64,000 bases of DNA from a virus. A program made the translations under genes and the position numbers. Under the pieces are notes generated by a model. That model searched no databases, was not told the origin of the DNA, and saw only the letters and a program-made list of their open reading frames with translations. This document shows positions 14,796-50,210 of the stretch, piece by piece (within the stretch, counting starts at the first letter, position 1; every line of letters starts with the position of its first letter). The stretch lies in IMG/VR virus record IMGVR_UViG_3300029908_000007, positions 1 through 64,000 of that record, one strand, 5' to 3'.

Positions 14796-15656
14796 CTATT
14801 CCACCCATTGGACTATGATTTGTCCAGCACTTCCAGCACTACCATTGCCGCCACTTCCGCCAGTTCCGCTAGAACCGCCTCCGCCACCGCCTGATCCCCC
14901 GATCCCTCCACCGCCAGCACTAGTAGTCGATCCAGCAGTTCCATTGCTACCTGCGGAGCCCGAAGCTCCACCCGCTGCACCACTGGAACCTACAACGGAT
15001 GTTGCATCACCAGCACCACCAGAAGCAGAGCCTCCGCCACCTCCACCACCACTAGTACCGCCTCCAGAACCTCCAAAAGCTCCAGAATTTTCTAAAAAGA
15101 AAGGAGAGGCAGCACCAACATTTGCGGCGCCATCAGCGGCTTTTCCACCTGCCGCACCGGGATTACCAGCTCCGCCAGCACCACTGTTTCCAGGAGTAGT
15201 TGTAAATAGGCCTACACCGGGATTACCAGCAGCCCCACCATTTCCGTTAATCGTATTTCCGGCTCCGCCACCAGTTCCACCGGTAGTCCCTATGAAGTTT
15301 ACTATGGTTCCAAAAGAAGAATTGCCACCATCACCACCGGCAGTGCCTGCGTGACCATCACTAGTTAATGTCGAAACCGCTCCCCCGGTTCCAGCAGTAC
15401 CAGCGGCACCAATAGTTATGGTGTAAGAAGTTCCAGGAACTACCGTTGCAAGATACATCATAGATGGCGCTTGTCCACCTGATCCACCGGCTCCTCCGCC
15501 CCCGCCTCCACCATTGGCGCCATTTCCACCTGCTCCACCCCCGCCTCCGCCACCTCCGCCTGTTCCGCCTCTTCCCCAGAGAGTTATATTCGTAACCCCT
15601 GCAGGTGCAATCCAAGTTCCAGAAGACGTAAATATCTTTTTAACGTATTTTGCCAT
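14796..15656 (-). CDS. Glycine-rich tail adhesin, paralogue 1
   Basis: 286 residues. A conserved N-terminal module (KIFTSSGTWIAPAGVTNITLWG) is followed by long glycine-rich segments with alternating beta-like strands (YTITIGAAG) and ends in I-V-Q-W-V-E. Glycine-rich proteins of this type form polyglycine-II-like receptor-binding tips in some T-even-like phages (gp38). One of three tandem paralogues, probably host recognition. Confidence 0.75.
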   Translation of the reverse strand: MAKYVKKIFTSSGTWIAPAGVTNITLWGRGGTGGGGGGGGGAGGNGANGGGGGGGAGGSGGQAPSMMYLATVVPGTSYTITIGAAGTAGTGGAVSTLTSDGHAGTAGGDGGNSSFGTIVNFIGTTGGTGGGAGNTINGNGGAAGNPGVGLFTTTPGNSGAGGAGNPGAAGGKAADGAANVGAASPFFLENSGAFGGSGGGTSGGGGGGGSASGGAGDATSVVGSSGAAGGASGSAGSNGTAGSTTSAGGGGIGGSGGGGGGSSGTGGSGGNGSAGSAGQIIVQWVE

Positions 15657-16520
15657 CTATTCCACCCACTGAACTATGAGGTATCCATCTGTACCTGCTG
15701 CACCTGCACTACCATTCCCACCAGCAGTGCCAGTTGTAGCTAATGCTCCGCCTCCGCCACCTCCGCCGCCTCCAGATCCGCCTGTTCCAGCGGTTGTTGT
15801 TGCAGCGGCTGGTGCATTTCCTCCAGCAGAACCTGCGGCACCACCAGCTCCACCATTTGTACCATTCTGTCCAGCGGCATCTCCAGCTGGAGATGAAGCA
15901 CTAGCTCCACCTCCACCACCATTAGTAGTTCCGCTACCGCCAGCGGCTCCTCCTGTCCCAGGTGTTCCGCTCGAAAACCAAGGAGCGGTAGCTCCAACAG
16001 GAGCCGAACCGTTCTTTCCAACAAGACCTGCTGTTCCACCGTCACCACCAACTACAGCAATTATACCAAAAACACCTGTACCGCTGTTACCACCAATTCC
16101 GGTTGTTGAAATGCCACCAGCAGTTCCAGCCCCTCCACCGCTGCCACCTTGAAAGGACATAAGAGAGCTAAACGATGTATTTCCACCGTTTCCACCGTTT
16201 CCACCAGCAGTTCCCGTTGATCCTGCAGCAGCAGCGGTTCCTCCAGCTCCTGATGCACCAGCTGTTCCGCCCAATCCAATAGTTATGGTATAAGCAGTAC
16301 CAGGAACCACTGTGAGTTCATATGCGAGAGAAGGCACCGAACCACCGCTTTGACCTGAACCTCCACCTCTACCTCCAGCAGTAGTCGAACCACCACCGCC
16401 TCCACTACCACCACTTCCGCCACCAGATCCACCTCTTCCGAAGACTACAACCATGGTAATGCCTGCGGGGCAAGTCCAGGTTCCACTAGTAGTAAAAAGT
16501 TGTCGTACCGATTTTGACAT
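15657..16520 (-). CDS. Glycine-rich tail adhesin, paralogue 2
   Basis: 287 residues. Same plan as its neighbours: QLFTTSGTWTCPAGITMVVV N-terminal module, a shared VPGTAYTITIGLGG strand, glycine-rich remainder and I-V-Q-W-V-E end. Stop/start junction has the same GGTGGAATAGATGG context as the gene downstream, indicating duplication of the whole cistron. Confidence 0.75.
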   Translation of the reverse strand: MSKSVRQLFTTSGTWTCPAGITMVVVFGRGGSGGGSGGSGGGGGSTTAGGRGGGSGQSGGSVPSLAYELTVVPGTAYTITIGLGGTAGASGAGGTAAAAGSTGTAGGNGGNGGNTSFSSLMSFQGGSGGGAGTAGGISTTGIGGNSGTGVFGIIAVVGGDGGTAGLVGKNGSAPVGATAPWFSSGTPGTGGAAGGSGTTNGGGGGASASSPAGDAAGQNGTNGGAGGAAGSAGGNAPAAATTTAGTGGSGGGGGGGGGALATTGTAGGNGSAGAAGTDGYLIVQWVE

Positions 16521-17389
16521 TATTCAATCCACACAATGACTATTTGCCCATTACTTCCTGTTGCACCAGTTGCACCAGCTCCGCCAGCAGATCCGGTTGT
16601 AACAGTGGCTGCTCCGCCTCCGCCACCTCCGCCGCCACTTCCACCGGCTCCCGCAGAAGAACTTGGAGGACTAGGAGCGGCACCACCAGCTCCACCGCTT
16701 GTACCTGTTGTTCCACCGATTCCGCCAGCTCCACCATTTGAACCCGTAGCATTGGCAGCAACAGGAGCAGCACTTCCGCCGCCGCCGCCGCCACCATGAG
16801 GAGGTGTACCAGCTGCGCCTCCAGATCCACCGGTTCCATTAGAAAAAAATGGAGAAATTGCTCCAACAGGAACAGCACCAGTAGTACCAGCGCTCCCTGC
16901 TGTTCCACCATTACCACTTGTTGGACCTTCATCATTAAACACTCCAAAGCCAGCCGTACCCCCAGTGCCTGTAGTGGTTAATGACGCCGCACCTCCAGCT
17001 GCGCCTCCAGAACCTGGTTGAAAAGCAAGAAGACTACCAAATGTAGAAGAAGTTCCTACAGATCCAGCTGTACCTGCTGAACCCGCTGCTCCACCTGCTG
17101 CAGCAGTTGCTCCAGCACCGCCAGCACCACCTGCTCCACCAGAACCAATAGTTATAGTGTATGTGGTTCCAGGAACAACAGTGATTTGATATGGTAATGA
17201 TGGAACCGATCCACCAACACCACCGGCCCCTCCGCCTCTAGCTCCCAAAGCAGTGCTTCCGCCTCCGCCTCCGCCACCTCCGCCGCCACCGCCAGCACCA
17301 CCCCTACCCCATACAACAACTGTGGTAATGCCCGCAGGGCAAGTCCAAGTTCCAGAAGAAGTAAATGTTACCTTAGTGTATTTGGACAT
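16520..17389 (-). CDS. Glycine-rich tail adhesin, paralogue 3
   Basis: 289 residues. N-terminal VTFTSSGTWTCPAGITTVVV module, VPGTTYTITIGSGG strand, glycine-rich lattice and I-V-I-W-I-E end. First of the three tandem copies after the long fibre gene. The plus-strand proline-rich frames in this region are only shadows of the GC-rich glycine codons. Confidence 0.75.
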   Translation of the reverse strand: MSKYTKVTFTSSGTWTCPAGITTVVVWGRGGAGGGGGGGGGGGGSTALGARGGGAGGVGGSVPSLPYQITVVPGTTYTITIGSGGAGGAGGAGATAAAGGAAGSAGTAGSVGTSSTFGSLLAFQPGSGGAAGGAASLTTTGTGGTAGFGVFNDEGPTSGNGGTAGSAGTTGAVPVGAISPFFSNGTGGSGGAAGTPPHGGGGGGGSAAPVAANATGSNGGAGGIGGTTGTSGGAGGAAPSPPSSSAGAGGSGGGGGGGGAATVTTGSAGGAGATGATGSNGQIVIVWIE

Positions 17390-22375: not shown

Positions 22376-24142
22376 TTAAGGTCTATTATTTGCTTCATTT
22401 GTTAATTGATTGGGATCGGCACAAATTTTTTGATATTCTGCGTCAGCCCGTGCTTCACTTCTTTCGAACTCATTGTCCCTAGGTGAAACCACAATCCCCC
22501 CTAGGGTACCTAACACCCCAGCAATGCTCACAGCGTTCACCAGACTCTCTTCCACGGCTTTGGTGGCATCAAACAACCCCAACTCTATGGCATCTCCATA
22601 CGTCTCATTTTCTACGTCGTAAACCAATTCAGGATTACCGATGAGCTTTGAAATGACTTCGGCGATTTCCTCGACGTTATGGCCAGCATTGTCTAGAAGC
22701 GTTTTGGGTAGACTCAAGAGAGCTTCCATGAGGACTTCTCTGGCGGGATCTCCTTCGGGAAGAGTTTCCGCGAGTTTAATAGCCATGTCAATGGCAATCC
22801 TGGTGCCACCAGGCAAACAGCCATATTTAATAGCTGACCGCATAGCCATAGTTGCGTCTTCGATACGATCGTGTTTTTCTTTGAGATCAGCTCCAGAGCC
22901 AGCAAAAACTGTGAACTTGGCGATACCACAGGTCAGTAGGGCTACTCTTTCTTGAAGCCAAAGCTTTTCAGCCTTGGTTTCAGAATTTGCAATCATTTTA
23001 GTTAAGTCACCAGCTCTAACCTCGACATTCATGGGTTCTGGGTCTCCAACTACCGTGGATCTAAACCGATAACTCTCGAAATATTCCATGCCGCCGCCGA
23101 GATCGTTGATATTAGCTCCAGACAGCTGATCTTTGATGCCGAATACCTTGGCTCCAGTGAAAGCGGCTAGATCGTATAAAAAAGCTTGTTGGGAATTGGT
23201 GAAGCCTCGCATAGGGGTCTTCAAGGGCATAATATTGATAGTGCTAGTGTTGACGAAATTGAACGTCAACGTGGTGAGTACGTTATCCGAAAATCCATGA
23301 GCAACTACGACGGTGTTTTTGAAATCTTCGTCGCCAGCCGCATATCTTTCGCCGACCTCGTTTAGAATAGGGGTGATTTGGATGAGATCGTTGATCATAC
23401 CATCGAATAAGATGAAGCGGGGTTTCTCAAGATAGGCCCTTTGGTTTCCCTGATCATTGATAAAAACATTGTTAAACTTTCCCAGATCTTCGAGTCCGGA
23501 ATAAATGGGCAATCCGTCGATTCTTTCAATTTTATAATCCTCGGGTCCTGATAATTCTTTGATAGTGATATGAGAGCCTTCGCCGAATCCAATGAGTTCG
23601 AAACATTCATAGACTTTATTGGCCATTTCAAGATCGCCGTTGGCACTAATCTTGCCTACCTGTCTGAGAAGGTCTTTGTTGTCTTCGCTGATCGTGATAG
23701 CACGGCTTTGAATATAGGGTACCAGAATGTCGGAGACCGCTTTTTTGATTTTACGAACGGCTTTCTGAGGACTATATTTGGGATTATTTTGGCAAAATTC
23801 GAAAAGATTTTTGATAAGTTGGTGGGCTAGGATAGTGGTGGTTGTGGTGCCGTCGCCCGCGCCTTCGCCGACGCGCTGAGCACTGTCTCTAGAGGTTTCG
23901 ATGATGACGTGATCGATGGAATCGATGGAACCAAGACTGGTGTAAACGCTGACGCCGTCTTTGCTGATGCGATTACTAATACCGGGAAGGTCGCTCTCAA
24001 TTAAAACGGTTTTTCCACCGGGCCCGAGGGTACCCCCAACTATGTCCGCGATTCTACTGGTAATATTGAGGACTTTCCGCTTAATAAGCTCGCGGTCGCT
24101 GATGAACATTTTTGGGGTGGTCTTGGCTTTACGATGGGACAT
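22376..24142 (-). CDS. GroEL-type chaperonin (phage-encoded)
   Basis: 588 residues (GroEL ~548). ATP-binding motifs of group I chaperonins are all visible: TLGPGGKT (38-45), SKDGVSV (60-66), GEGAGDGTTTTT (93-102) with the key Asp, KISANGD, RIEDATMAMRSAIKYG with the catalytic-Asp region, PGGT, and GDAIELGLFDATKAVEESL near the C-terminus. The GGM-repeat tail of bacterial GroEL is absent (ends TNEANNRP). Folds phage or host proteins in the cytoplasm, perhaps the capsid protein encoded nearby. No GroES-like gene is seen in the window, as for phage chaperonins that act without one. AAAGGAG precedes the ATG. Confidence 0.93.
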   Translation of the reverse strand: MSHRKAKTTPKMFISDRELIKRKVLNITSRIADIVGGTLGPGGKTVLIESDLPGISNRISKDGVSVYTSLGSIDSIDHVIIETSRDSAQRVGEGAGDGTTTTTILAHQLIKNLFEFCQNNPKYSPQKAVRKIKKAVSDILVPYIQSRAITISEDNKDLLRQVGKISANGDLEMANKVYECFELIGFGEGSHITIKELSGPEDYKIERIDGLPIYSGLEDLGKFNNVFINDQGNQRAYLEKPRFILFDGMINDLIQITPILNEVGERYAAGDEDFKNTVVVAHGFSDNVLTTLTFNFVNTSTINIMPLKTPMRGFTNSQQAFLYDLAAFTGAKVFGIKDQLSGANINDLGGGMEYFESYRFRSTVVGDPEPMNVEVRAGDLTKMIANSETKAEKLWLQERVALLTCGIAKFTVFAGSGADLKEKHDRIEDATMAMRSAIKYGCLPGGTRIAIDMAIKLAETLPEGDPAREVLMEALLSLPKTLLDNAGHNVEEIAEVISKLIGNPELVYDVENETYGDAIELGLFDATKAVEESLVNAVSIAGVLGTLGGIVVSPRDNEFERSEARADAEYQKICADPNQLTNEANNRP

Positions 24143-24166: not shown

Positions 24167-24177
24167 GTTATATCATA
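24167..24177 (-). promoter_or_regulatory. Extended -10 promoter of the chaperonin
   Basis: Minus-strand TATG-A-TATAAC about 24 bases before the ATG at 24142. It overlaps the stop codon region of the endonuclease gene upstream. Here the transcript keeps a leader with RBS, unlike the leaderless genes. Confidence 0.6.
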
Positions 24178-25570
24178 AGTCTATGATCCATCGTTTCTTT
24201 CCACAATCCCAGATTCGAACGTAGCCAAGTGATTGAGCCATTTCTTTCTCAGTTTCTCCTATAGCACCCTTTTCAAGAAGATGCTTTTTTTGACAAGATT
24301 GTTTTGAAATTCTCTTATTTCGATATACATAGGAATAGTCAGGTTTTAAATTCTCTTCCATGACGAATCCCGTTTTTTCATAAACCCCTCCAATAGACCA
24401 ACGATTGTCGGACCAGGAAACAAGTTTTTTATAACTATTTTTCTTAGCATAATCTATAAGAGAAGTCAGCAATTTAGAAGAACCTCCGGAAACAGAAATT
24501 CCTCTTTTAAAAACCAATCTATTAAGCGCTAAAATCTCTCCATCTCCTTGACGATGATGATTGTTTCCCGTTACTAAACCGACTAGCTCTTCGTTATAGT
24601 ACAATCCAAAAGCTATTTTGATTGGAGCAGATCCTTGGATATGATGTTCGTCTAAAAAAACTCTAGCTACTTCCTTAGGAACTTCTTGAATTTGAGTCTT
24701 CCTTCCCATAATTTTTGTAGGATTTTTACCAATAGTAGACAGCAAAAAGTTTTTAATTTGATCCTTTCTTTCGGACCATTCGTCGCCAAAGATAGTTATC
24801 AAGCGTATTCCGTCATTTTGAGCCTTAATCATTTTATTAAAGTGGTACATTTCTTCTCTTGGAGTAGGACTTTCTTCGTTATGCCAGTATAGTCCACAAT
24901 ATTCTATGCCTATATTAAGTTCTGGTAAGTGTATGTCTATTTCGCTTCCACCAGCTCTATGTTTAAACTTATATTTTTCTACCTTCAAACCCAGACTTTC
25001 CATCCATTCTTTTATTTCTATTTCAAAACTAGAAGTTCTATTGCATCCAGAACAGTGCATGCACGAATTTTTAATGACGGTATGGATTTTACTAGTTTCT
25101 CTAGTATTTAGACATTTAAGGCATTTAATAATAAAAGATTTTGTTTTGCTTTGAAACCCAGAAACATACTCAAATCCTCTTTCGTTGAGCATTAGTTTTA
25201 TTTGCTCTAGCGCTTCTGGAGATCCAGCCTGTTCCTTATAAGCATTCCTCATATTTTCCATAGCAAGCGGATCTTTAGCTAATTTTGCTTTATAGGCATG
25301 CTTTTGACGTTCTTCTGGAGAAAGGAGGACGTTTTTTTCTTTATTAATTTCTTTTACTTTACTAAGTTTTACACCGCTTAACGCCACTATTTCTTTGTTG
25401 GTTTTACCTTGTTTTTTTAAGGAAACCACGAAATCAATCTGCTCTTCGGTATATTTTATCTTGCTTTTAGCAACGATAGCGGCAGTACACTCTTTCGAAC
25501 AAGAGTTTCCTCTGCCTATCCATTTATATTCAAATTCTTTACTGCAGTTTTTGCAATTCGCAACTTTCAT
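24173..25570 (-). CDS. Free-standing homing-type endonuclease with GNAT-like C-terminal domain
   Basis: 465 residues from the ATG at 25570 (longer in-frame starts at 25582 and TTG 25606 overlap the promoter). Zinc clusters CKNC...CSKEC at the N-terminus, a helix-turn-helix-like centre, CLKC/CMHC, then a Vsr/PD-(D/E)XK-like core GSEIDIHLPELNIGIEYCG followed by YWHNEE. The C-terminal ~200 residues (KIMGRKTQIQEVPK, HHIQGSAP, YKKLVSWSDNRWS) match the same region of the endonuclease at 48876. Inserted between the chaperonin and the capsid genes; typical mobile intergenic nuclease. Confidence 0.75.
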   Translation of the reverse strand: MKVANCKNCSKEFEYKWIGRGNSCSKECTAAIVAKSKIKYTEEQIDFVVSLKKQGKTNKEIVALSGVKLSKVKEINKEKNVLLSPEERQKHAYKAKLAKDPLAMENMRNAYKEQAGSPEALEQIKLMLNERGFEYVSGFQSKTKSFIIKCLKCLNTRETSKIHTVIKNSCMHCSGCNRTSSFEIEIKEWMESLGLKVEKYKFKHRAGGSEIDIHLPELNIGIEYCGLYWHNEESPTPREEMYHFNKMIKAQNDGIRLITIFGDEWSERKDQIKNFLLSTIGKNPTKIMGRKTQIQEVPKEVARVFLDEHHIQGSAPIKIAFGLYYNEELVGLVTGNNHHRQGDGEILALNRLVFKRGISVSGGSSKLLTSLIDYAKKNSYKKLVSWSDNRWSIGGVYEKTGFVMEENLKPDYSYVYRNKRISKQSCQKKHLLEKGAIGETEKEMAQSLGYVRIWDCGKKRWIIDL

Positions 25571-25577
25571 ATCTAAT

Positions 25578-25606
25578 AGCATATAATAAAGATTGCGGCT
25601 TGTCAA
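25578..25606 (-). promoter_or_regulatory. Promoter of endonuclease gene (with AATCTTTA in the spacer)
   Basis: TTGACA (25606-25601), 17-base spacer, TATGCT (25583-25578), then 7 bases to the ATG at 25570, giving a leaderless transcript. The spacer contains AATCTTTA (25594-25587), itself 4 bases before the alternative ATG at 25582, so two promoter types may overlap. Confidence 0.5.
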
Positions 25607-25675: not shown

Positions 25676-27061
25676 TTAGCTGAGCTGGCCAGTAATATTG
25701 TCGATTAACACGTTTTTTCTTGGCTGGTAAGCTGCCAATGACAGAAACCTAAAATGCGCCTCGGGGAGGCTGAGGTCGCTCACAGCAAGTTTAAGTTTGC
25801 TATAAGGAGCAAGCTGAGCGATACCGAGTGTATTGCCCTGGATCAGGAATCCCGTCACAGAACCTGGCTGTTTGTTGCCCAAGTCGGTGAATACAGGGTT
25901 GCCCGAACTCTGCTTGATCTTACCAATGAACTTGGCTTGTGCAGCGGTTCCGCCAACACCTGAGCGATATACGTTGTAGTATGAAGCTCCGGATACAGCG
26001 GTAATCGTCACAGTCACTTTGTCCCCAGCAGCGGTAACCGTTGCCGTTTGTGGAGCGCCTGGAAGAGATTCGCCCAAGATCGACACGCCCGTCGCGTAGT
26101 ACACATAGGTACCGGCTTGGAGCAATGACCCAGCAGCACCGGCATCAGCAACAGTAATTGCTGGAGCCGAAGGCGTGCCTTGGCGTGAACGAGCAGGCTG
26201 CGTTTTTCCAGAGAGGAAGCGTGAAGCTTCGAGGGAAACAACAGCGCTAGAAGTCCACTGCGTGCGAAGGTGAGCGCCAGTAGCTTCCTGGGCAGACCCA
26301 GCGAGCATAATGCGTTCTTTGGCATGCGCGATTTTGTTATAAGCACTCAGAGAGATCGGATCAAGGATTAAGCGATCAGCAGCGCCCATGTTCATGGCCG
26401 AGCGAACCGAAGAATCTTCGATGATTGACTGAGTCAGTGTTCCGCCCGAAGACAGTACAACCGTTTGGTTGGATCCGAATTCAGCGAACATCAAGTCTTG
26501 CGTGTTAGCTTGCCCATCAGACTGGCGAACCTGTTGGTCGACACCGATCATATTAGGAAGCTGAGCAACAACCGTTGGATTGCCGTCGAAAACACCGGCG
26601 TTCGAGAAATCAGCTTGTCCACGGAACAAGTCGAATTCGATATCGCCAGCGAGTTTCATCGCAGCATCGGCAGAAGAGCGGTCTTCAGCCTTAACGCCGT
26701 CGAAGGCGCCAATCATGTTTGCAGCAACGGTCACACGACGGATCGTGCTGTAGTATGCCATAGGCACAACAGCGCGAATGAAGTTCGACACGTCTTCTTC
26801 GCCGACGCCGCCTTCAAATTGAGCGGATCCACCGAAGATACCGTAGTCTAGCTGACGGTTGAATTGATGAAGTTGCGATTTAACTTCCTTGGAAGGAAGG
26901 ATTTTCTGCAATTTGATGTGGGAATCGTCGAACGTGACGTTTTGCATCACAGGCGACAAATCTTCCATCATAAGGGCGGCGCCCTGTTCCAGGTTCTGTG
27001 GGGAGGCCATGTAACTGCCCGCTTCGAGAGCCTTCATTAGTGACTGAAGTTGTTCGATCAT
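25676..27061 (-). CDS. Major capsid protein
   Basis: 461 residues. The N-terminal 150 residues (long helix GAALMMEDLSPVMQNVTF, then HQFNRQLDYGIFGGSAQFEGG) and the central segment DGNPTVVAQLPN...DLMFAEFG...DRLILDPISLSAYNKI fit the HK97-fold capsid proteins of large myophages. Around residues 300-385 a beta-rich insert (TYVYYATGVSILGESLPG, YYNVYRSGVGG) looks like a fibronectin III/Ig-like domain, common as a capsid surface decoration. Follows a scaffold-like gene and ends at a strong terminator, as expected for a highly expressed capsid gene. Not proven by homology. Confidence 0.75.
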   Translation of the reverse strand: MIEQLQSLMKALEAGSYMASPQNLEQGAALMMEDLSPVMQNVTFDDSHIKLQKILPSKEVKSQLHQFNRQLDYGIFGGSAQFEGGVGEEDVSNFIRAVVPMAYYSTIRRVTVAANMIGAFDGVKAEDRSSADAAMKLAGDIEFDLFRGQADFSNAGVFDGNPTVVAQLPNMIGVDQQVRQSDGQANTQDLMFAEFGSNQTVVLSSGGTLTQSIIEDSSVRSAMNMGAADRLILDPISLSAYNKIAHAKERIMLAGSAQEATGAHLRTQWTSSAVVSLEASRFLSGKTQPARSRQGTPSAPAITVADAGAAGSLLQAGTYVYYATGVSILGESLPGAPQTATVTAAGDKVTVTITAVSGASYYNVYRSGVGGTAAQAKFIGKIKQSSGNPVFTDLGNKQPGSVTGFLIQGNTLGIAQLAPYSKLKLAVSDLSLPEAHFRFLSLAAYQPRKNVLIDNITGQLS

Positions 27062-32152: not shown

Positions 32153-33160
32153 ATGAGGAAGAATTGGGACTATCCAGACGAAATAATTCAACTAGCCCTG
32201 AAACACGGGAGTATGACGGATTTTATCAAAAATAGCGCCGGAGCATGGCAGGCCGCGAAACGCTTTGGCATAGACAAAAAGATCAAATCTCTTATGCCTG
32301 TAAAAAAGAGAGGCGCTTACACTTACGAAGAATTAAAAGAATTTGCTCTTTCGTGCGGAACTAGAGGAGAATTTAAAAAGAAATCTCCGTCTAAGTATAA
32401 CGCAGCTCGTGATATGGAAATTTTAGACGAAATTTGTTCTCACATGCCTCCTCCAAAAACGGAGGCTTACACGTATGAGGAATTAGAAGCTCTAGTAAAA
32501 ACTTGCTCTTCTAATCAGGAATTTAGAGATAAATATCCTGGGGCCTATACTGTTGCTTGTAGCAGAAAAGTGTTAAAAAAACTGTGTAAAGATTTTCCAG
32601 AAGCTAAAAATAAGAAACATACAAGAGAAGAAGTGGTAGCATTTTTTGGTAAAGATGGATACGAAGTAGTTAGCGAAAAATATGTAAACGCCAACACTCG
32701 TCTAGAAACCATTTGTCCGGCTGGCCACACTTATTTTGTTAGATATGGCGATTTCTATACTGGTTATAGATGCGCCGATTGCGTACTTAATAATGTCTCT
32801 AAAATGGAGTTGGAACTTCTAGAAGCTCTTAGAAAATACGTTCCAGAATTAAAAAGAAAAAAGTTTAAGGTTACCGTTCTGAATAAATCCCATATTAAAG
32901 CTTTTGAAGTTGATATGTATGACTCAGAAAAGAAAATTGGAATTGAATTTGATGGAGAATACTATCATTCTTTTGAGTACATGAGAAGCGATAAAAAGAA
33001 AAAGAAATGGTCCGATGAAGATATTCGAAATTATCATGAAATTAAGGATAGCGCTTTAATGGACTGTCACGGTATTTTGGTATTACACATTAAAGAAGAA
33101 GAGTGGAAAGTCGACAAACAAGCTTGTATCAACAAAGCTTTAAGGTTTCTAGGAGTATAA
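32153..33160 (+). CDS. Repeat-containing PD-(D/E)XK-type homing endonuclease
   Basis: 335 residues. Three ~45-residue N-terminal repeats, each with a pattern like YTYEELKEFA...F-x-x-x-x-P-x-x-Y-x-x-A-R...LDEICSHM, thought to bind DNA. A zinc-knuckle-like section (TICPAGHTYF, CADC) follows, then the nuclease core FEVDMYDSEKKIGIEFDGEYYH and LHIKEEEW, as in Vsr-like enzymes. Same family as 48876 and 55532. Sits between structural genes with its own promoter. Confidence 0.75.
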   Translation: MRKNWDYPDEIIQLALKHGSMTDFIKNSAGAWQAAKRFGIDKKIKSLMPVKKRGAYTYEELKEFALSCGTRGEFKKKSPSKYNAARDMEILDEICSHMPPPKTEAYTYEELEALVKTCSSNQEFRDKYPGAYTVACSRKVLKKLCKDFPEAKNKKHTREEVVAFFGKDGYEVVSEKYVNANTRLETICPAGHTYFVRYGDFYTGYRCADCVLNNVSKMELELLEALRKYVPELKRKKFKVTVLNKSHIKAFEVDMYDSEKKIGIEFDGEYYHSFEYMRSDKKKKKWSDEDIRNYHEIKDSALMDCHGILVLHIKEEEWKVDKQACINKALRFLGV

Positions 33161-38811: not shown

Positions 38812-39738
38812 ATGAAACCGAACGCCGAGTACTTTCTCAGAAAGACACTTGGAGAAGACCTTAAAGAGTCGTTAGGCGAAGTCCTATCTAAGTCCGAAGT
38901 CTATAAGCAAGGTACTCGTACTATTACCGATACCGACGATCTTTTTCAAGGTCTTCAAATCGTTCCACGAGCACTACTAAGTCTTTTGGTTAGAGAGTTG
39001 TCTCCCATGCAAATCGGAGAAAATAAAGAAATTCGCATTCCAGGAAAAGAAGACACCACGGTTCAGGTTACCAAGCATGAGCGTGATTCCTATAGTGGTC
39101 AAATAATTCAAAACAACGTTAAAATCAACGACTTTATGCACCGCTCATTACCGGGTTTAGGTTTGGTTTTGATGACAATGCTAGAACTATACGACTTCGA
39201 AGATCTCAAAGAAACTCCTTCCGCCGACCACTCCCATATCAACAAGCTCATCGACGAACGCATGCATCTTCACTCCCTCATCAACCAAGTCGTAGATGGC
39301 AAGCTCATGCACCGCGACGCCGTTGAACAGCTTCTCATGACCAAGCTAAATCAGATGGGCACCGAACATAAAGAGATTAAAGAAGAACACAAAGAAATCA
39401 TGAAGCCCGAAGAACCTAAGGCAACAGTGGTTATTAACATCGAAACCGCTAAAAAACGTCGTCCGTTATCGGAATTCGTGGAAAATCGTAAAAAGAAACT
39501 TGCCAAGAAAGAGCATTTTATAGAAATGAAAAAATCCGAAGAAATTTCATGCCCGGATTGCGGGAACGTTATTTTTTCTGAGGGTGCTTACAGCGGCTGT
39601 ATTTGTTTTGGTGATAGCGATAAAAAGCTTTATGTTAAAAAATCTGAAAACGGCTATATGGTGCGCCCTGGTCGTGGGTGGGATGAAGAGAATCTGGAAA
39701 TGCTTTTGGAAGCTTTGAGGGGTAATAAAAATGGGTAG
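38812..39738 (+). CDS. Virion-region protein with C-terminal zinc ribbon
   Basis: 308 residues. Helical N-terminal half with EIRIPGKEDTTVQVTKHERD; a strongly charged helix (EHKEIKEEHKEIMK) in the middle; a C-terminal ribbon SCPDCGNVIF...GCICFGD. Overlaps the start of the inserted endonuclease by 8 bases. Similar zinc ribbons occur in large-phage head proteins; function unknown. Confidence 0.55.
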   Translation: MKPNAEYFLRKTLGEDLKESLGEVLSKSEVYKQGTRTITDTDDLFQGLQIVPRALLSLLVRELSPMQIGENKEIRIPGKEDTTVQVTKHERDSYSGQIIQNNVKINDFMHRSLPGLGLVLMTMLELYDFEDLKETPSADHSHINKLIDERMHLHSLINQVVDGKLMHRDAVEQLLMTKLNQMGTEHKEIKEEHKEIMKPEEPKATVVINIETAKKRRPLSEFVENRKKKLAKKEHFIEMKKSEEISCPDCGNVIFSEGAYSGCICFGDSDKKLYVKKSENGYMVRPGRGWDEENLEMLLEALRGNKNG

Positions 39739-40480
39739 CGGCGGCAAGAACAGACTATCCGTTGAAGAAGTTGAGCGGAGGGTTCAACTTGCTCATGGTG
39801 GCATGGTTACAATGGTCGGATCTACCTACAAAGGTATGCTTAAAAAAGCATTGTTCGTCGACAAGGATCATGGGGAATGGTGGACAAAACCGGGTGACGT
39901 AACATTTAAGAAATCGGGCCATCCCTTAAGATCTTTAGAAAAATCAAGAAATACCTTTACGAGTAAATACGGTATTGGTATCATTAATGCCAGTCAAGTA
40001 GAAGAAATAAAAGAAAAAAAGAAAGCAACTACATTCAAAAACCATGGTGTTAAGCATCCTTCTCAGAGTAAGGCGATCAGAGAAAAGGCTCAAAACACGA
40101 CCCTAGAAAGGCATGGGGCTTTATTCCCGTATCAATGTTCAGACATTGCTCTCAAGGCCGCAAAAAAAGTAAACAATCCCAGTACAAAAATTCATTGGAA
40201 AACCGGAGAAGAACTATTTTGTCAAGGCGGATATGAAGCCAAAACTGTTGACTATCTTAATGCCAACCAAATTAACTTCGAATGGCAGCCCAAGACATTC
40301 AAAATGCCTGATGGTAAAACATATCGTCCTGACCTATACCTGTCTGACACAGGCATTTGGGTTGAAATAAAAGGCTGGATGAGAAAAGATGCTGAGTTAA
40401 AGTGGGACTGGCTCAAATCTGAATACCCTAACGCAGAACTTTGGAATCAAAAGAAACTAGAAGAAATGGGGATATTGTAA
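39731..40480 (+). CDS. Putative PD-(D/E)XK homing endonuclease
   Basis: 249 residues. N-terminal ~130 residues contain KxxTxxxxxGVxHPSQSKxxxEKxxxTxxxxHG repeats (ATTFKNHGVKHPSQS, NTTLERHGALFPYQC) found with phage endonucleases. The C-terminal part has the nuclease motif YRPDLYLSDTGIWVEIKGW (Asp...Glu-x-Lys). Overlaps both neighbours (8 bases and 1 base), so it was inserted without breaking translational coupling. Confidence 0.65.
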   Translation: MGSGGKNRLSVEEVERRVQLAHGGMVTMVGSTYKGMLKKALFVDKDHGEWWTKPGDVTFKKSGHPLRSLEKSRNTFTSKYGIGIINASQVEEIKEKKKATTFKNHGVKHPSQSKAIREKAQNTTLERHGALFPYQCSDIALKAAKKVNNPSTKIHWKTGEELFCQGGYEAKTVDYLNANQINFEWQPKTFKMPDGKTYRPDLYLSDTGIWVEIKGWMRKDAELKWDWLKSEYPNAELWNQKKLEEMGIL

Positions 40481-42150
40481 TGGATACTAATACGTCCCAG
40501 CACTTAGTCTTCGCCGGAGATGGCGATAACATTGGTCAAAGACACGCTCGGGCCATTTTGTCCGATGACATCGCTCAAGTAAGAGAAGTTTCGGAACATA
40601 TCACCGAAGGAAATAATTTTGTAAGAGACTTTGTTGAATCCCATGGGGGCGAATGGATTAGTGGCGGCGGCGACGAATTCTCATTTATGGCTCCTCCTGA
40701 GTTTGTGGAGCTTCTCGATCAGCTCCGAAAAGATTATGAATATATAGTTCAAGCCACACTATCCGTTGGATATGGAGATACTATCTCTCAAGCCGGTAAA
40801 GCACTTTTGGTTGCTAAAAGTCGCGGAAAAGATCAAGTCGTACAGTACGAAGATTCGATGGAAGACGAGCTTCAGCGTATCGGTGAAGAAGAAAATTCTC
40901 CCGACGCAGAAGCAAAAAAAATAAAAGGTGTACTTACTAGCGATAACGGCACGCAAGCACAAGAACCTGGAAACGCGCCTCCAGAATCTGACAAGGTATT
41001 GCCAGAAGGATCTGACGCTGCTGTTAACGAACCCACTTCTTGTGAGCCACCAGTTGAAGATAATAATAACGGATATGATTCGGGTTATAAAAATAGCAAT
41101 CCCACCACTAGAAAAGACTCTTATAGAGCCGAGGATATGACTCCTCCTACGATTGCAAAACCTAACCTAAAACAGCAAACGCCGGTCAAAGAAGCGGTTT
41201 CTACCGATATTCAAGAGACCAACCGTCAAATGAATGAAGAACCCGCCAATCCAGATGAAGAGGCTCCTATGATTGAAAAACCAGCACCAAAAGCATACCA
41301 TGGACAAGCTGAGGGCGACGAAGAAGTCCCACAAAGCAATGTTCCACAAAGTGAGGCTCAGCCTAGAGATAACGATAAACCCGGTGATCTTAAATATGGA
41401 CCCGGCGAAGGCGAACAGATTCAGCCCGAAGCCGATGTTCCCGTTGAAAACGCTACCACAGATGAAGCCGAAGCCACTGAAGACCAGGACATGGAAACCA
41501 AACATTGTGAGAGCTGTACTTGCGCAGATCACAAAGACGCAGAAACTACTTTGGACGAACACGTTGACAATGCTCAGGATTTTGAAAATACCTTAGATGA
41601 CGGCCAACCTGAAGGCGCGGAAGAAACTTTAGACCAGCACATCGATAATGCCACCGATATGCAAGATAACATGGATCAAGATGGAATTAGTCGTCCCGAA
41701 GACTATGACGATAAACGCGAAGACATGGGACTTAGCGAAGAAGACTCCGGCGAACCCGACCTAGACGGCGTTCTTCGCGATGGACTTGATGAGCACGCAG
41801 AAAATATCCAGAAAGAAAAAGTTGTCAACATGGTTGGAGAAGCCCTGGAAGGATTCAAGAGTCAGAAAGCAATTCTCGATAAAGCGAAGGAACAAGCGCC
41901 AGAATTGTACGCAAGTTGCATTTCCATGTTACGCGCTATGATCGAACTCTGCTCATTGGCTGGAATCAACGATGGTGAAGCCGAACAAGAAGTTAATGAA
42001 ATCGAAGGTCAGAGTACTGCTCCAGAAGAAACTCCTGGAGAAGAGGGTACGCCAGCTGAAGCCCCTGCTGAAAGCGCATGTCCTAGTTGTGGAAAACCTC
42101 ACGATGAAGCGGCTCCCCAGGAGGGGCCGCCTGGAGCCCCACAGCAGTAA
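40480..42150 (+). CDS. GGDEF/mCpol-like domain protein with long acidic tail
   Basis: 556 residues from the ATG that shares a base with the previous stop. Residues ~8-120 resemble a minimal nucleotide-cyclase palm: FAGDGDNIGQ (Asp14/Asp16), WISGGGDEFSFM (GGDEF 63-67) and TLSVGYGDTISQAGKALLVAKSRGKDQV. This is the arrangement of GGDEF/mCpol domains that make cyclic (di)nucleotides. The remaining ~430 residues are Glu/Asp/Pro-rich and probably disordered, with LDEHxDNAxDxxxxxD repeats, ending in ACPSCGKPHDE. Lies among head and tail genes, so it may be a virion protein. Activity is inference. Confidence 0.65.
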   Translation: MDTNTSQHLVFAGDGDNIGQRHARAILSDDIAQVREVSEHITEGNNFVRDFVESHGGEWISGGGDEFSFMAPPEFVELLDQLRKDYEYIVQATLSVGYGDTISQAGKALLVAKSRGKDQVVQYEDSMEDELQRIGEEENSPDAEAKKIKGVLTSDNGTQAQEPGNAPPESDKVLPEGSDAAVNEPTSCEPPVEDNNNGYDSGYKNSNPTTRKDSYRAEDMTPPTIAKPNLKQQTPVKEAVSTDIQETNRQMNEEPANPDEEAPMIEKPAPKAYHGQAEGDEEVPQSNVPQSEAQPRDNDKPGDLKYGPGEGEQIQPEADVPVENATTDEAEATEDQDMETKHCESCTCADHKDAETTLDEHVDNAQDFENTLDDGQPEGAEETLDQHIDNATDMQDNMDQDGISRPEDYDDKREDMGLSEEDSGEPDLDGVLRDGLDEHAENIQKEKVVNMVGEALEGFKSQKAILDKAKEQAPELYASCISMLRAMIELCSLAGINDGEAEQEVNEIEGQSTAPEETPGEEGTPAEAPAESACPSCGKPHDEAAPQEGPPGAPQQ

Positions 42151-42365: not shown

Positions 42366-43214
42366 ATGCTAAAATTCAATATTGACCCCAAAGATATATT
42401 GGCTGCATGTAAGGATTCCCAAGAAGAGGTTAAAAAAGCCTTAACTAAAGGTGTAAAAGATCTCGCAGTTGCGGCTCAAGGACATATTGTCGAACTTGCT
42501 AAAGGCGAACTGAGTCCGGCTTTGTTTAAGATCTTTAAGGGTGACCAAAAAGAACCCACACTTCGCATAGATACTATTGACGCCAATACCCATGTTATAA
42601 CCTTATCGGGCTCTGCTTACTGGATTGAAGAAGGCATTGAGCCGGGCAGTGATATGAAAACGGACAAGTGGCTTTTTAAATCTAAAAAGACCAGAACTTC
42701 TAAAGAAGGTTACCGCTATTTATTTGTACCATTTGAACATTCAGCACCTCCTAGCACCCAGACCGGCTATGAAAAAGGCCTAACCGACCGCGTTAAGTTC
42801 GAACTCAAGGCTAAAAACAAACAACGTAAACAGAATGGCCTATCTCAGATTCCTTGGATGGGGATAGAAAGAGATGAGCATGGTAAACCCAAAGAGGGTT
42901 TGATCCATGAATTTGATTTCAAAGGCACCAAAGCAAAAGATAGTTGGACATCTAATCCATTAGAACGTTTGAGGGTCTATCAAGCCGTTGAAAGAGATAA
43001 AGAAGGAAAAGCTAAGCTCACTAAAGGCGGCAAAGAAAAAGTAACCCGATCGTGGATGACGTTCCGTACTGCTTCCGAAAATCCAAAAAGTAAAGATAAG
43101 TTTATACACCCCGGTTATACCGGCAACAAGTTTATGGATAAAACTAAAGAATGGGCTGAAACCGAATTCTACGGCAAAATCCTACCTGACATTTTTGCGA
43201 AGTGGAAGGACTAA
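42366..43214 (+). CDS. HK97 gp10-like neck/tail completion protein
   Basis: 282 residues. N-terminal helix (KKALTKGVKDLAVAAQGHIV), a strand ITLSGSAYWIEEGIEPG, YRYLFVPFEHSAP and the C-terminal FRTASENPKSKDKFIHPGYTG match the pattern of gp10-type proteins in which a phage tail/neck protein has W-I-E-x-G and H-P-G motifs. Role at the head-tail joint inferred. Confidence 0.65.
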   Translation: MLKFNIDPKDILAACKDSQEEVKKALTKGVKDLAVAAQGHIVELAKGELSPALFKIFKGDQKEPTLRIDTIDANTHVITLSGSAYWIEEGIEPGSDMKTDKWLFKSKKTRTSKEGYRYLFVPFEHSAPPSTQTGYEKGLTDRVKFELKAKNKQRKQNGLSQIPWMGIERDEHGKPKEGLIHEFDFKGTKAKDSWTSNPLERLRVYQAVERDKEGKAKLTKGGKEKVTRSWMTFRTASENPKSKDKFIHPGYTGNKFMDKTKEWAETEFYGKILPDIFAKWKD

Positions 43215-43215
43215 T

Positions 43216-44229
43216 ATGGGTGGAATATTTCAAACCGACGCACTGCTTAAGACCATACTTGAAGAATCTCTGCAGGATGTTAAGAATAATCTGTGGCTTG
43301 TCGAATACATATTAGAAGATTTCACTCAAAACAAGTTCTTGCGCACAAAATTTGGACAAAAGCAAATCGCTGCTGCCAAAGAATTCTTTTTAAATAACAA
43401 TGTCAATGTTCAGTTACAGTTCTCCAAAGATAAAGAGAAATTCCCAGCTATCTTCTTAACGATGGGCAGTAGTAATGAATTTCAAGAAAATCGCACCATG
43501 GGCGACGTTGGAGAAAGAAATATCATTTTACAGCCGTCACAGGTTGGTTTAAAAATACCTTATGTGGTACCACCCTTTATTCCCACAAGTTTTGATGTCG
43601 CCACAGGAACTATCGGGGTCCCTGAAGGAATTGATCTCATGCCAGTTTCTCCAGGCATGGTCGTACTGAATCCTGAAAATGGTAACGGCTACCCAGTAAT
43701 CAGTATTAACGGTCAAAGTATTATGGTTCAAGCCGGGATCGAATTAGACGCGTCCCAACTCGGGGTTGTTCCTCAATATCGTTATTTCCAATCCCGTCTG
43801 GGACGTTCATTCTTCGAAGAAACCTGGGCCATGACTATTGCAACGAATGATCCTCAGACGTTGCTTTGGCTTCATAGTTTGGTAGTTTACACACTTCTCA
43901 GATATCGTGAGTTTTTTGAACACAATGGCTTTTTGGAAACCAAACTGAATAGTACCGACATTTTTACTCCCGAGTTTAGCAATGCCGGTGGCGAAGAAAT
44001 CTACTGTAGACAAGTTACCATGAGCGGTCGCGTAGTCCAGAGCTGGATTCGTGGTCTTCATAAGAAAATCGAATCCGTTCTTATTAGAGATATTAATCCT
44101 GCCGCTGTTACTTTAGCCGATCCTTCAGGCTATGTCGGCGGCATACGCATCGTTAGTAACCTAACAACTCCTCCTCTTCAACAGAATGATACGACCTATT
44201 TTACCGAAAATCCGGAAGACGAAGAGTAA
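43216..44229 (+). CDS. Putative tail terminator/neck protein
   Basis: 337 residues from ATG 43216 (GGAAGGA upstream; the longer frame lacks an RBS). Helical N-terminus, then beta-rich body with VVLNPENGNGYPVISIN and a helical WAMTIATNDPQTLLWLHSLV section. Such proteins between gp10-like and sheath genes are usually tail terminator or completion proteins. Family not confirmed. Confidence 0.55.
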   Translation: MGGIFQTDALLKTILEESLQDVKNNLWLVEYILEDFTQNKFLRTKFGQKQIAAAKEFFLNNNVNVQLQFSKDKEKFPAIFLTMGSSNEFQENRTMGDVGERNIILQPSQVGLKIPYVVPPFIPTSFDVATGTIGVPEGIDLMPVSPGMVVLNPENGNGYPVISINGQSIMVQAGIELDASQLGVVPQYRYFQSRLGRSFFEETWAMTIATNDPQTLLWLHSLVVYTLLRYREFFEHNGFLETKLNSTDIFTPEFSNAGGEEIYCRQVTMSGRVVQSWIRGLHKKIESVLIRDINPAAVTLADPSGYVGGIRIVSNLTTPPLQQNDTTYFTENPEDEE

Positions 44230-46097: not shown

Positions 46098-48236
46098 ATG
46101 AATCAGCAATTAGTCACTCCAAATGTGTCGACAAACATTCCAGGCACTTATGTTAATTATACCGTACTAAGTCAGCCAATCGGCGTAACTTCCAGCGGTA
46201 TTCTTTTGATCATGGGCGAAGCCGCAGGCGGCCCTAGCTACGAACAAGTCGCGCTTAAAAACAGCGTTTACACACCCGATCAGCTTCAAAAGGTCATCCA
46301 GACCTACACCAGCGGTCAGATCGTCGACGCTTTCCAGGCCATTACCGCTCCTTCTAACGACGCCAACATCTCGGGTACCGCTACCCAAATCTACGTCGTT
46401 AAGACCAACACGGGAACCAAAGCTAATGCGACACTTCCTAGTTCTTATGGAACGCTAACCGATATCAACTGGGGAGTTCTTGGAAATCAAGACCAATATC
46501 AAACTTTAGCTGTTCAAGCCGAAGTCGCTCCCACTGTGACCGGTGGAACCATTCCTTCTTTCAGTGCAACTCCCAACGCTACTTTTACCGTTCGCTTGAA
46601 CGGTGGCGCTGCTATGGTTGCAACGGTTGGATCCGGTCCCTATACTACGGGCGCTCAAGTCGCTGCTTCCATCACCGGGCTCCCATCTGGTATCACCGCT
46701 AGCGGTAACGCTACTTCTATCACTTTAACTGTCACTGCAGACGCTTCTGCTTGGGGTAAAGGTTGGGGTAAGAGCTTCGAGCTTATCGACAGCACTCCAG
46801 GCGATCTGGCAGCTTTAGGTCTTGCTCCTGGTTTGACCGTTTCTTCGGAAGAACCTGAAATCGAACTCCAAGATTCCAATGCTTCTCGCGGTGTCAGCGA
46901 AACCTTAACTGCCAACGCAGCGGTAGCTCTTGCTGTTGGTTATGCTGGAACCACAGCTACTCTCACTATTGCCTTGGTTTCTGGCGTCTATACCTTAACC
47001 ACAACGGTTACCGGCGGCAGCGGTGGAAATCTGAGCATTAACTTAAGCCAGTATTCCACAATCGGCGCTTTGGCGACATTCATTGCAAGTCAAATCGGCT
47101 ACTCCGCCACTGTCATTCCTGCCGCTAATTCTCTTCCTACTTCGGCATTGGACGCGGTTTCTGCAATAGGTATTTGCGCAACTGGCGCTGGAGACGAACC
47201 CGGTCGTATTAAAATGGGACTTTATCAGTTCGAACAAGCGATGGCCACCAGCAAACAGTTGGTTTTCACGCCAATCGCAACCGCAGGGCTTCCCGCTCCT
47301 ATGACCGCCCCCGCTTATCTGACTGGCGGAACCATCGGCGCCACTCTGGCTGCTGATATCGTTAATGTCGTCGACACCCTGGGCGGTGTAAACGTTGACA
47401 TTATCGTTCCATTGTTCTCGCAAAACGCTAGCGCCGATATCATCGCTGGTTTGACGGATCCTGCTTCGACTTATACGATTGCCGCTATCAATGCATTGCT
47501 TAAGAGTCATTGTATTGAGGAAAGCAATCCGAGCCTTAACAGAAACCGTATTTGTATCTTGTCTATGAACAGTACGTTTGCAATTGCCGCAGCCGCCGCT
47601 CAAGGCCTTGCAAGCGCTCTGTGTTCTTTGACCTTCCAGAATGTAACACAGGTTAATAGCCTTGGTGTTATCACTCAGTTCCAACCTTGGTACGCCTCGG
47701 TTGTCGCTGCTGGCATGCAGTTGGGCGGATTTTACAAAGCCATTGTAAACAAATACGCAAACCTGATCAGTATCATCGATCCATCGGACTACGATAGTGG
47801 GTCTCCTGGCGATACCTCAGAAGCTTTGTCTGCTGGTTTGCTTCCTCTATATACCGATATCGGTGGACCTAAATGGGTTAGCGATCAAACAACCTACGGA
47901 ATCGATTCCAACTTTGTGTGGAATTCAATCCAGGCCGTGTACGACGCCAACTTGATCGCAAAAGATCTGAAAGTCAGTTTCACCAATGCTTTTGTTGGTC
48001 AAAGTTTGGCCGACGTTTCCGCAGCATCAGCTTCTGCTTTCTTAACGCAGAAGATGGCTGGCTACATGCAGCTTAAACTGATTGCGCCTAGCAATGGTGC
48101 CCCACTTGGTTTCAACAATGCGAAGATCACAATTGTCGCACCTACAATGACCGTGGCCGTGAACATCTATCTCGCAACGGCGATTTATTTTATTCCAATC
48201 AGCTTCAGTATCTCAGCTGTGGAACAATCGGCTTAA
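46098..48236 (+). CDS. Contractile tail sheath protein
   Basis: 712 residues. N-terminus NVSTNIPGTYVNYTVLSQPIG, a central inserted beta domain (about 140-330, Thr/Ala/Gly-rich), and the conserved C-terminal domain (AKDLKVSFTNAFVGQSLADV, FLTQKMAGYM, ITIVAPTMTVAVNIYLA) as in myovirus sheath proteins. Polymerises round the tube and contracts on infection. GGGAG precedes the ATG; the tube gene follows. Confidence 0.85.
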   Translation: MNQQLVTPNVSTNIPGTYVNYTVLSQPIGVTSSGILLIMGEAAGGPSYEQVALKNSVYTPDQLQKVIQTYTSGQIVDAFQAITAPSNDANISGTATQIYVVKTNTGTKANATLPSSYGTLTDINWGVLGNQDQYQTLAVQAEVAPTVTGGTIPSFSATPNATFTVRLNGGAAMVATVGSGPYTTGAQVAASITGLPSGITASGNATSITLTVTADASAWGKGWGKSFELIDSTPGDLAALGLAPGLTVSSEEPEIELQDSNASRGVSETLTANAAVALAVGYAGTTATLTIALVSGVYTLTTTVTGGSGGNLSINLSQYSTIGALATFIASQIGYSATVIPAANSLPTSALDAVSAIGICATGAGDEPGRIKMGLYQFEQAMATSKQLVFTPIATAGLPAPMTAPAYLTGGTIGATLAADIVNVVDTLGGVNVDIIVPLFSQNASADIIAGLTDPASTYTIAAINALLKSHCIEESNPSLNRNRICILSMNSTFAIAAAAAQGLASALCSLTFQNVTQVNSLGVITQFQPWYASVVAAGMQLGGFYKAIVNKYANLISIIDPSDYDSGSPGDTSEALSAGLLPLYTDIGGPKWVSDQTTYGIDSNFVWNSIQAVYDANLIAKDLKVSFTNAFVGQSLADVSAASASAFLTQKMAGYMQLKLIAPSNGAPLGFNNAKITIVAPTMTVAVNIYLATAIYFIPISFSISAVEQSA

Positions 48237-48258: not shown

Positions 48259-48789
48259 ATGGCTGGAGCACAACTACCTAATTTAAATCCCACCAATGGT
48301 GGAACAGGTCAAAGCTACACCGTAACTGGTGGAAGAGCTTTGCTTTATTTACCTAATCAATCTGGGCAACTGGTGTTGGCTGGGACCTTTGATACCGTTA
48401 GCAGAGGCCGAGGACTTGGGACTGAAGCAATTCATACCCTCGGTCAATATTCGGCCCGCGAAATTGCAATTACTTCTTACAACGAAGTTACTGTAAATTG
48501 TAGCGGATTCCGTGTAGTCGGAGCTGGAACTACGGTTCTTGGTCATTTCCCCACACTTGCTGAGATCTTAAACTATTCATCTGTCACAATCAAAGTTGTT
48601 GACAGGCAGACTGGCGATACGATTTTAGTCGTAACCGGCGCTGTTCCTACTACAGACAATGAGAACTATTCGAGCCGAGCCACCACCAAGACATCGATTT
48701 CTTATACGGGAATCGCGGCTTTCGATGAATCGACCACTGATTCTTCGGGTAATCCGACAGATGGTGAAGGCACGCCAAGTTGGCCATAA
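48259..48789 (+). CDS. Tail tube protein
   Basis: 176 residues, beta-rich, right behind the sheath with an AAGGAG RBS. Short, polar N-terminus followed by VTGGRALLYLPNQSGQLV and a late helix region; length and position are those of a myovirus tail tube. It ends at a strong terminator, consistent with abundant expression. Confidence 0.75.
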   Translation: MAGAQLPNLNPTNGGTGQSYTVTGGRALLYLPNQSGQLVLAGTFDTVSRGRGLGTEAIHTLGQYSAREIAITSYNEVTVNCSGFRVVGAGTTVLGHFPTLAEILNYSSVTIKVVDRQTGDTILVVTGAVPTTDNENYSSRATTKTSISYTGIAAFDESTTDSSGNPTDGEGTPSWP

Positions 48790-48875: not shown

Positions 48876-50210
48876 ATGAATAGAACTTGGACTTTAGAAA
48901 AATTACAGAACGAAGCTATAAAATACACAAAAAGATCTGCTTTCCAAAAGGGAAGTAAGACGGCCTACAATACGGCTCAGCGCAAAAACCTACTGGACAT
49001 TATCTGTAAGCACATGGAAGCCTTTAACATCAATGGCGACAGAAATCCTAATTTTAAATGGTCCCTGGATATTTTAAAACAAGAAGCTCTGAAGTACAAT
49101 TCAAAAAGCGAATTTAAAGATAAAAATCCAAAAGCTTACCACGCAGCTTGGTACAGCGATGTGCTAGATGAAATCTGCTCCCATATGAAAAACCTTCTCC
49201 ATTATTGGACGGACGAAGAATTGGCCAAAGAAGCTTTAAAACATAAAAGCAGAACCAAATTTGAAGAAAAAAGCGGAAGTGCCTATCTAACCGCTTGTAG
49301 ACGAGGTCTTATAGATGAAATCTGCGTACATGCTCCAAAAAATGAGAAGAAAAGCTATGTACAAAAAGAAATATTTGATTTCATTAACTCTTTTTATCCT
49401 GATACCGTATACGATACTAGAAAAGTAATATCTCCGTTGGAACTAGATATTTACATACCATCATTGAAGCTAGCCATTGAATATTGTGGCCTATATTGGC
49501 ACTCAGAAGAATATAAAGAAAATAGCTACCATTATGATAAAATGAAATTTTGCAATGAAAAAGGTATAAGACTGATTACAATATTTGAAGATGAATGGCT
49601 AAAAAGGCAGGATCAAGTAAAGAACCTTCTTAAGTCGGTTATCAATAAAAATGAGTTCAAAATAATGGGAAGGAAAACTAAAATTAAAGAAGTGCCCAAA
49701 AAAGAAGCTAAAGAATTCTTAGAACAAAATCATATTCAAGGGTCTTCTGTATTTGAAATATCGTTTGGTTTGTATTATTTTAACGAACTACAAGCAGTAA
49801 TTACCGGCAACAAACATCATAGACAAGGCCATTCCGACACGCTAGTTTTAAATAGATTGGCTTTTAAGACCGATGTGTCTATTGCTGGAGGCCCTTCTAA
49901 ACTTTTCAATCGTTTAGTGAGCTATGCGAAAGAAAGGGGATACAAGAGGTTAATTTCCTGGTCCGACAATAGGTGGTCTGAAGGAAATGTTTACAAAAAG
50001 TTAGAATTTGAATTAACTGAAAATTTACCTGCCGACTATTCTTATTTTAGCAATCAGTCTAGAATATCCAAACAATCTTGTCAGAAAAAGATGTTAATTA
50101 AAAAAGGTGCTAAAGGAGATATGTCTATGACCGAAAAAGAATTGGCTTTAAGTCTAGGTCTATATAGAATTTATGACTGCGGTAAGAAACAGTGGTCCAT
50201 TAATTTATAG
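48876..50210 (+). CDS. Repeat-containing homing endonuclease with GNAT-like C-terminal domain
   Basis: 444 residues. Three N-terminal repeats (A-x-K-Y...SAFQKGSKTAYNTAQ...LDIICKHM type), then a Vsr/PD-(D/E)XK-like core (LELDIYIPSLKLAIEYCGLY, WHSEEY) and a C-terminal part KIMGRKTKIKEVPKKEAKEF, HHRQGHSDT, RLISWSDNRWSEGNVY that is clearly homologous to the gene at 24173. The two enzymes differ in the N-terminal domain, showing module exchange. Confidence 0.75.
   Translation: MNRTWTLEKLQNEAIKYTKRSAFQKGSKTAYNTAQRKNLLDIICKHMEAFNINGDRNPNFKWSLDILKQEALKYNSKSEFKDKNPKAYHAAWYSDVLDEICSHMKNLLHYWTDEELAKEALKHKSRTKFEEKSGSAYLTACRRGLIDEICVHAPKNEKKSYVQKEIFDFINSFYPDTVYDTRKVISPLELDIYIPSLKLAIEYCGLYWHSEEYKENSYHYDKMKFCNEKGIRLITIFEDEWLKRQDQVKNLLKSVINKNEFKIMGRKTKIKEVPKKEAKEFLEQNHIQGSSVFEISFGLYYFNELQAVITGNKHHRQGHSDTLVLNRLAFKTDVSIAGGPSKLFNRLVSYAKERGYKRLISWSDNRWSEGNVYKKLEFELTENLPADYSYFSNQSRISKQSCQKKMLIKKGAKGDMSMTEKELALSLGLYRIYDCGKKQWSINL

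Follow-up and report, generated by a model that had tools for sequence, protein, structure and literature searches.

An mCpol-domain protein encoded among the late virion genes of Mx1-like contractile-tailed phages

The locus and its gene neighbourhood

The DNA analysed here (the window, 64,000 nucleotides) comes from a virus record of 162,308 bases. On its plus strand, an open reading frame extends from an ATG at 40480 to a stop at 42150 and encodes a protein of 556 amino acids. The A of this ATG is also the final base of the TAA closing the upstream gene, giving a 1-base overlap; the program-made version of the frame starts earlier, at a TTG at 40441. The features of the gene and of the region downstream are listed below, with equivalent residues given for OptS, the mCpol protein of the Panoptes defence system.

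40480..42150, plus strand: mCpol-linker-helix protein, 556 aa (open reading frame; start/stop overlap; orthologues equally placed in about 100 viral loci)
40510..40848, plus strand: mCpol palm domain, residues 11-123 (profile, predicted structure and OptS comparison, detailed below)
40519..40527, plus strand: D14-G-D16, first metal motif, D14 matching OptS D6 (sequence; conservation in relatives)
40666..40680, plus strand: GGDEF hairpin, residues 63-67, D65 matching OptS D57 (sequence; conservation in relatives)
40816..40830, plus strand: K113 to K117, conserved lysines (conservation; lost jointly with the Asp residues in phage Mx1 and locus L098)
40870..41799, plus strand: acidic low-complexity linker, residues ~131-440, ~310 aa (27% D/E, pI 4.05, GRAVY -1.38)
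41800..41964, plus strand: conserved C-terminal helix-like segment, residues ~441-495 (a profile of this segment finds it towards the C-terminus of nearly all orthologues)
42366..43214, plus strand: famA, a conserved downstream gene of phrog_16819 with no assigned function (PHROGs match; synteny)
43195..44229, plus strand: famB, of the SP10_terminator (PF23932) / phrog_1000 family (profile matches)
46098..48236, plus strand: tail sheath (phrog_279, E 4e-24; orthologue of the Mx1 sheath)
48259..48789, plus strand: virion structural protein following the sheath, in a tube-like position (phrog_985, E 2e-5; the Mx1 orthologue lies directly after its sheath)

The original prediction described residues 1-120 as holding a DGD and an exact GGDEF, and both are there. 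It went on to describe ~430 disordered acidic residues. The acidity is borne out (residues 131-556 contain 25% D/E, with a pI of 4.05), and the linker is probably disordered; however, residues ~441-495 form the helix-like segment, so the tail does not look disordered throughout. Across the fetched loci, 104 copies of the protein have that segment.

A role for famA as a neck protein was considered and is unconfirmed, its model (pLDDT 86) giving no interpretable match in the PDB. Elsewhere in the window, genes for homing or HNH-type endonucleases are dispersed among the late genes (24173-25606, 32153-33160, 39731-40480 and 48876-50210), the third of these being the gene immediately 5' of the mCpol gene that overlaps its start codon. 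A phage-encoded GroEL-type chaperonin (22376-24142, minus strand) is found near the major capsid gene (25676-27061), and three tandem, similar and extremely Gly-rich proteins of 286, 287 and 289 aa, with IVQWVE-like ends, are encoded at 14796-17389 on the minus strand.

Spread among phages

Scans of IMG/VR yielded about 100 related viral loci with an mCpol domain, which reduce to 63 domains at <90% identity. The mCpol-linker-helix architecture is present in nearly all of these loci, sited just 5' of famA, famB and the sheath gene. Among the 104 protein copies that combine an mCpol domain with the C-terminal segment, counted over loci that were not deduplicated, famA follows at most 350 nt downstream in 99, and famB and the sheath come next in most. 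The earlier placement of the domain in a virion gene cluster thus holds, and the arrangement is constant across the roughly 100 loci.

Myxococcus phage Mx1, a virulent myophage with a morphology similar to that of T2 and T4 (PMC6070905), is alone among annotated phages in having related sheath and famB genes. Two related phage contigs occur inside a metagenome-assembled genome (MAG) that bears the title Deltaproteobacteria and falls in Myxococcota, in agreement with the host of Mx1; the mCpol matches in this MAG are phage-type proteins. PHROGs has no family for the 40480-42150 protein or for 26 of its relatives. A tblastn search of 50,697 phage records with its mCpol domain found nothing, and the same search with the domain of a relative (L091) found only the degenerate Mx1 copy. 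In the reading preferred here, set out below, 40480-42150 is a core late gene of widespread, large, contractile-tailed, Mx1-like phages whose hosts are at least partly Myxococcota.

Assignment of the N-terminal domain

The N-terminal domain is a genuine mCpol (minimal CRISPR polymerase) and not a classical GGDEF cyclase. Residues 11-123 match the Pfam mCpol family PF18182 with an E value of 6e-16 (59.2 bits, cut-off 26.4), and the NCBIfam model NF033576 is also passed (41.5 bits, cut-off 40). As a single-sequence query, the domain finds the solved OptS structures 9mnr and 9nwn at E 4e-5 and 7e-5, and the OptS match strengthens to 1e-20 when a profile of the phage family is used. An AlphaFold2 model, made from the domain together with 30 relatives, has a pLDDT of 95 and a pTM of 0.87. 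OptS chains take the first six places among its PDB matches (Foldseek E 3e-9 to 3e-8), and OptS is also its top VIA match, with Z 17.3 and an rmsd of 1.9 across 120 residues at 24% identity; the palms of GGDEF proteins, Y-family polymerases and Cas10 rank next, at Z of about 12-14. In alignments, D14 and D65 fall on D6 and D57 of OptS, the putative active site of that enzyme (PMC12657218).

The GGDEF family PF00990 has no match anywhere in the 162-kb record, in a search that does detect the separate GGDEF gene of Mx1. Of the two names given to the domain in the original prediction, GGDEF/mCpol, the second therefore stands, on the evidence of PF18182, NF033576 and the OptS fold, and the first does not.

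Active-site conservation and selection

In the set of 63 viral domains, the most strongly conserved columns are the active-site residues and a few glycines. D16 and K113 are each kept in 61 domains, D65, K117 and G64 in 60, and D14 in 50, the D14 position otherwise holding N (10 domains), S (two) or a gap (one). D14, D16, D65, K113 and K117 are intact together in 50 of the 63. The hairpin is more variable at its end: 10 of the 63 relatives have Q or N in place of E66, and the final position is G in 34 and F in only nine, so that the literal F of GGDEF is incidental. By analogy with GGDEF cyclases, K113 and K117 probably bind the triphosphate.

In a tree of 125 columns, many forks of which lack resolution, the D14N rows form a single group (95/97), corresponding to one change, and nine of the 10 members of this clade retain D16, D65, E66 and both lysines. 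Mx1 and L098 form a group of their own (100/100) on a very long internal branch (2.56), and they have jointly lost D14, D65 and both lysines. The cellular mCpols in the comparison, OptS and one Sulfitobacter plasmid copy, group with a set of GGDN-bearing phage domains described below (86/85), but long branches are involved. Three close pairs had a usable dS; in these the domain is under purifying selection, at dN/dS values of about 0.04, 0.08 and 0.10, and its dN is lower than that of the linker.

Residue conservation, low dN/dS and the joint loss in Mx1 and L098 together indicate that the mCpol site is under selection in most lineages and has been released in one. Loss of the active-site Asp in relatives, which the original prediction had named as refuting evidence, does occur in a minority of them: one clade has D14N (10 of the 63 domains), and Mx1 and L098 have lost the site entirely. 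Active-site conservation nevertheless lends good support to reading the domain as a putative active cyclase. As for its product, S38 corresponds to S30 of KpOptS, a position that tunes product choice (PMC12657218). However, the adenine-contacting N34 of OptS is replaced by T42, and the product of the 40480-42150 domain is for this reason not predictable.

Variants, losses and other palm proteins

Three loci (L094, L076 and L082) retain the C-terminal segment but lack the mCpol domain, and no mCpol was found anywhere in the 170,618-base record of L094. In L094 (4550-5983) and L076 (5784-7217), Cys-rich CxxC repeats stand in place of the domain. The D14N clade, the dead domain of Mx1 and L098, and the absence of the domain from L094 show that not every relative needs catalysis. 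At L132 (7977-9380), a single protein carries two mCpol domains, the second of which is degenerate (GTE for GDE), resembling a pair of catalytic enzyme and pseudo-enzyme.

A second group of phages (L148, L149, L151 and L152, and also L150), on contigs of 56-139 kb, has an mCpol domain with DGD and GGDN in another protein. Downstream of the mCpol gene of L151 are genes for a portal and for a protein resembling a head-maturation protease. Together with the Mx1-like phages, these loci place mCpol in the head or tail modules of two or more distinct groups of phages.

Mx1 also encodes a separate second palm protein, WNM70324.1 (L170:17173-17904), with an intact GGDEF and a PF00990 match over the cut-off, as do L200, L201, L202 and L203. 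In Mx1 its gene is located between those for the prohead protease and the major capsid protein, and is annotated as a nucleotide cyclase. Substitution of the lost mCpol site by such a gene was considered, as both Mx1 and L098 have one. However, this is not a strict swap, since G012, G014 and G021 carry a separate GGDEF gene in addition to an above-cut-off mCpol.

Possible functions

The reading preferred here, held at roughly balanced confidence, is that the product of 40480-42150 is a core protein of the late virion module, with a nucleotide-binding mCpol domain that is probably catalytic in most lineages. The palm domain would bind NTPs together with metal ions. In most lineages, this one among them, it would probably also produce a small cyclic nucleotide in the manner of Panoptes OptS. 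The linker, acidic and flexible, would connect it to the conserved C-terminal helix, which probably docks the protein on the virion or the assembling particle, and the protein would be packaged in the particle. Association with the virion is suggested by the gene neighbourhood only. Candidate targets of the cyclic product include host signalling, an anti-phage effector or the control of assembly. It is rather doubtful, though conceivable, that this contractile-tailed phage clade packages an active mCpol cyclase, so that infection would deliver or display an enzyme that makes cyclic nucleotides and sets host or defence signalling.

It may instead be that the mCpol fold was recruited as a non-catalytic module for the assembly of the head-tail region, structural or NTP-binding, with the site residues kept for NTP binding only. 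The fixed position among late genes would fit such a module, as would the D14N clade, which keeps nearly all of the remaining site residues, the retention of the rest of the protein in Mx1 and L098 around a dead domain, and the phages that retain the C-terminal segment alone. However, the full catalytic set in 50 of 63 domains includes the metal-binding D14, which is not obviously needed for mere nucleotide binding, and this alternative is possible at distinctly less than an even chance. An ordinary GGDEF diguanylate cyclase gained from a host would account for the literal GGDEF string, and GGDEF domains are the second-best structural class, but the mCpol profile and the OptS fold are clearly better matches, the genome has no PF00990 match and the F is unconserved; this very improbable reading is largely refuted.

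The original prediction had proposed that a phage cyclase could interfere with or counter defences driven by cyclic nucleotides. In the form considered here, cyclic nucleotides made by the phage would keep OptE-type effectors of Panoptes silent while infection proceeds, or would tie up the effectors of CBASS or type III CRISPR. The fold and active site are OptS-like, as such a role would have them. The mCpol product of Panoptes keeps the effector in check, and sponges made by phages set the effector free (PMC12657218, PMC12657230), so that a phage-made product could in principle take the place of the Panoptes one. The proposal has gained no direct support, however. The mCpol gene is flanked by late phage genes, with no OptE (2TM-beta) effector beside it, and a single-sequence query of limited reach (the presumed OptE, a plasmid protein beside mCpol in L209) detected no homologue in this genome; across 11 phage records, the sole match to the presumed OptE was a weak one in a 1280-aa frame of a relative. 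In the 58 genomes searched from the phylum of the MAG, no mCpol was found apart from the phage-type copies in the MAG itself, and thus these genomes showed no Panoptes for the phages to counter. As a rule, genes against defences are accessory, and counter-defence is needed early. The gene sits in a late module, and its constant place and architecture across very divergent phages are more in keeping with a core role than with that of an accessory anti-defence gene. Given this fixed position and the lack of an effector partner, counter-defence is ranked low and seems unlikely as the main function.

The mCpol family itself is known, and two 2025 papers on Panoptes (PMC12657218, PMC12657230) present it as a host defence enzyme; as far as found, the mCpol-linker-helix architecture and its location in a phage late module are undescribed. 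A search of the open-access literature, outside which much of the literature lies, returned nothing relevant on mCpol or GGDEF proteins in phage virions or virion gene clusters. In the phages described here, mCpol belongs to their own late module as a gene conserved over dozens of divergent genomes, and selection acts on its active site. Were the domain active, phages would make cyclic-nucleotide signals and not only destroy them, and a connection of nucleotide signalling with virion assembly or entry would become directly testable, with the D14N and dead mCpol variants as natural controls.

Comparison with known systems

Among systems related at the level of the palm, the GGDEF diguanylate cyclases (PF00990) share the superfamily, a fold similarity of Z 12-14 and the literal GGDEF hairpin. 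In contrast to them, the phage protein has no PF00990 match, and the exact GG[DE]EF of 40480-42150 is unconserved among its relatives. The Cas10 palm of type III CRISPR is also related (PF22335, E 3e-5, under its cut-off), but the phage protein has a small single domain without HD, CARF-type or crRNA-complex parts. CARF_HEPN_mCpol of PADLOC has the mCpol domain in common with it (E 3e-5, residues 5-121), whereas a profile search found no CARF or HEPN in the phage protein.

The Mx1 protein WNM70340.1, annotated only as hypothetical, is an orthologue with the same neighbours, an mCpol remnant and the C-terminal segment, but its active site is destroyed (SID / LGAVG, with both lysines gone). The closest known system is Panoptes OptS of Klebsiella pneumoniae (PDB 9mnr, 9pd0, 9nwn), which belongs to the same domain family, has the same fold and shares K113 and K117 with the phage domain. 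The hairpin is GGDE in the phage protein and AAD in OptS. OptS stands alone as a protein of about 120 aa and is the operon partner of the effector OptE (PMC12657218), whereas the phage domain shares one polypeptide with a linker and helix and is encoded amid virion genes.
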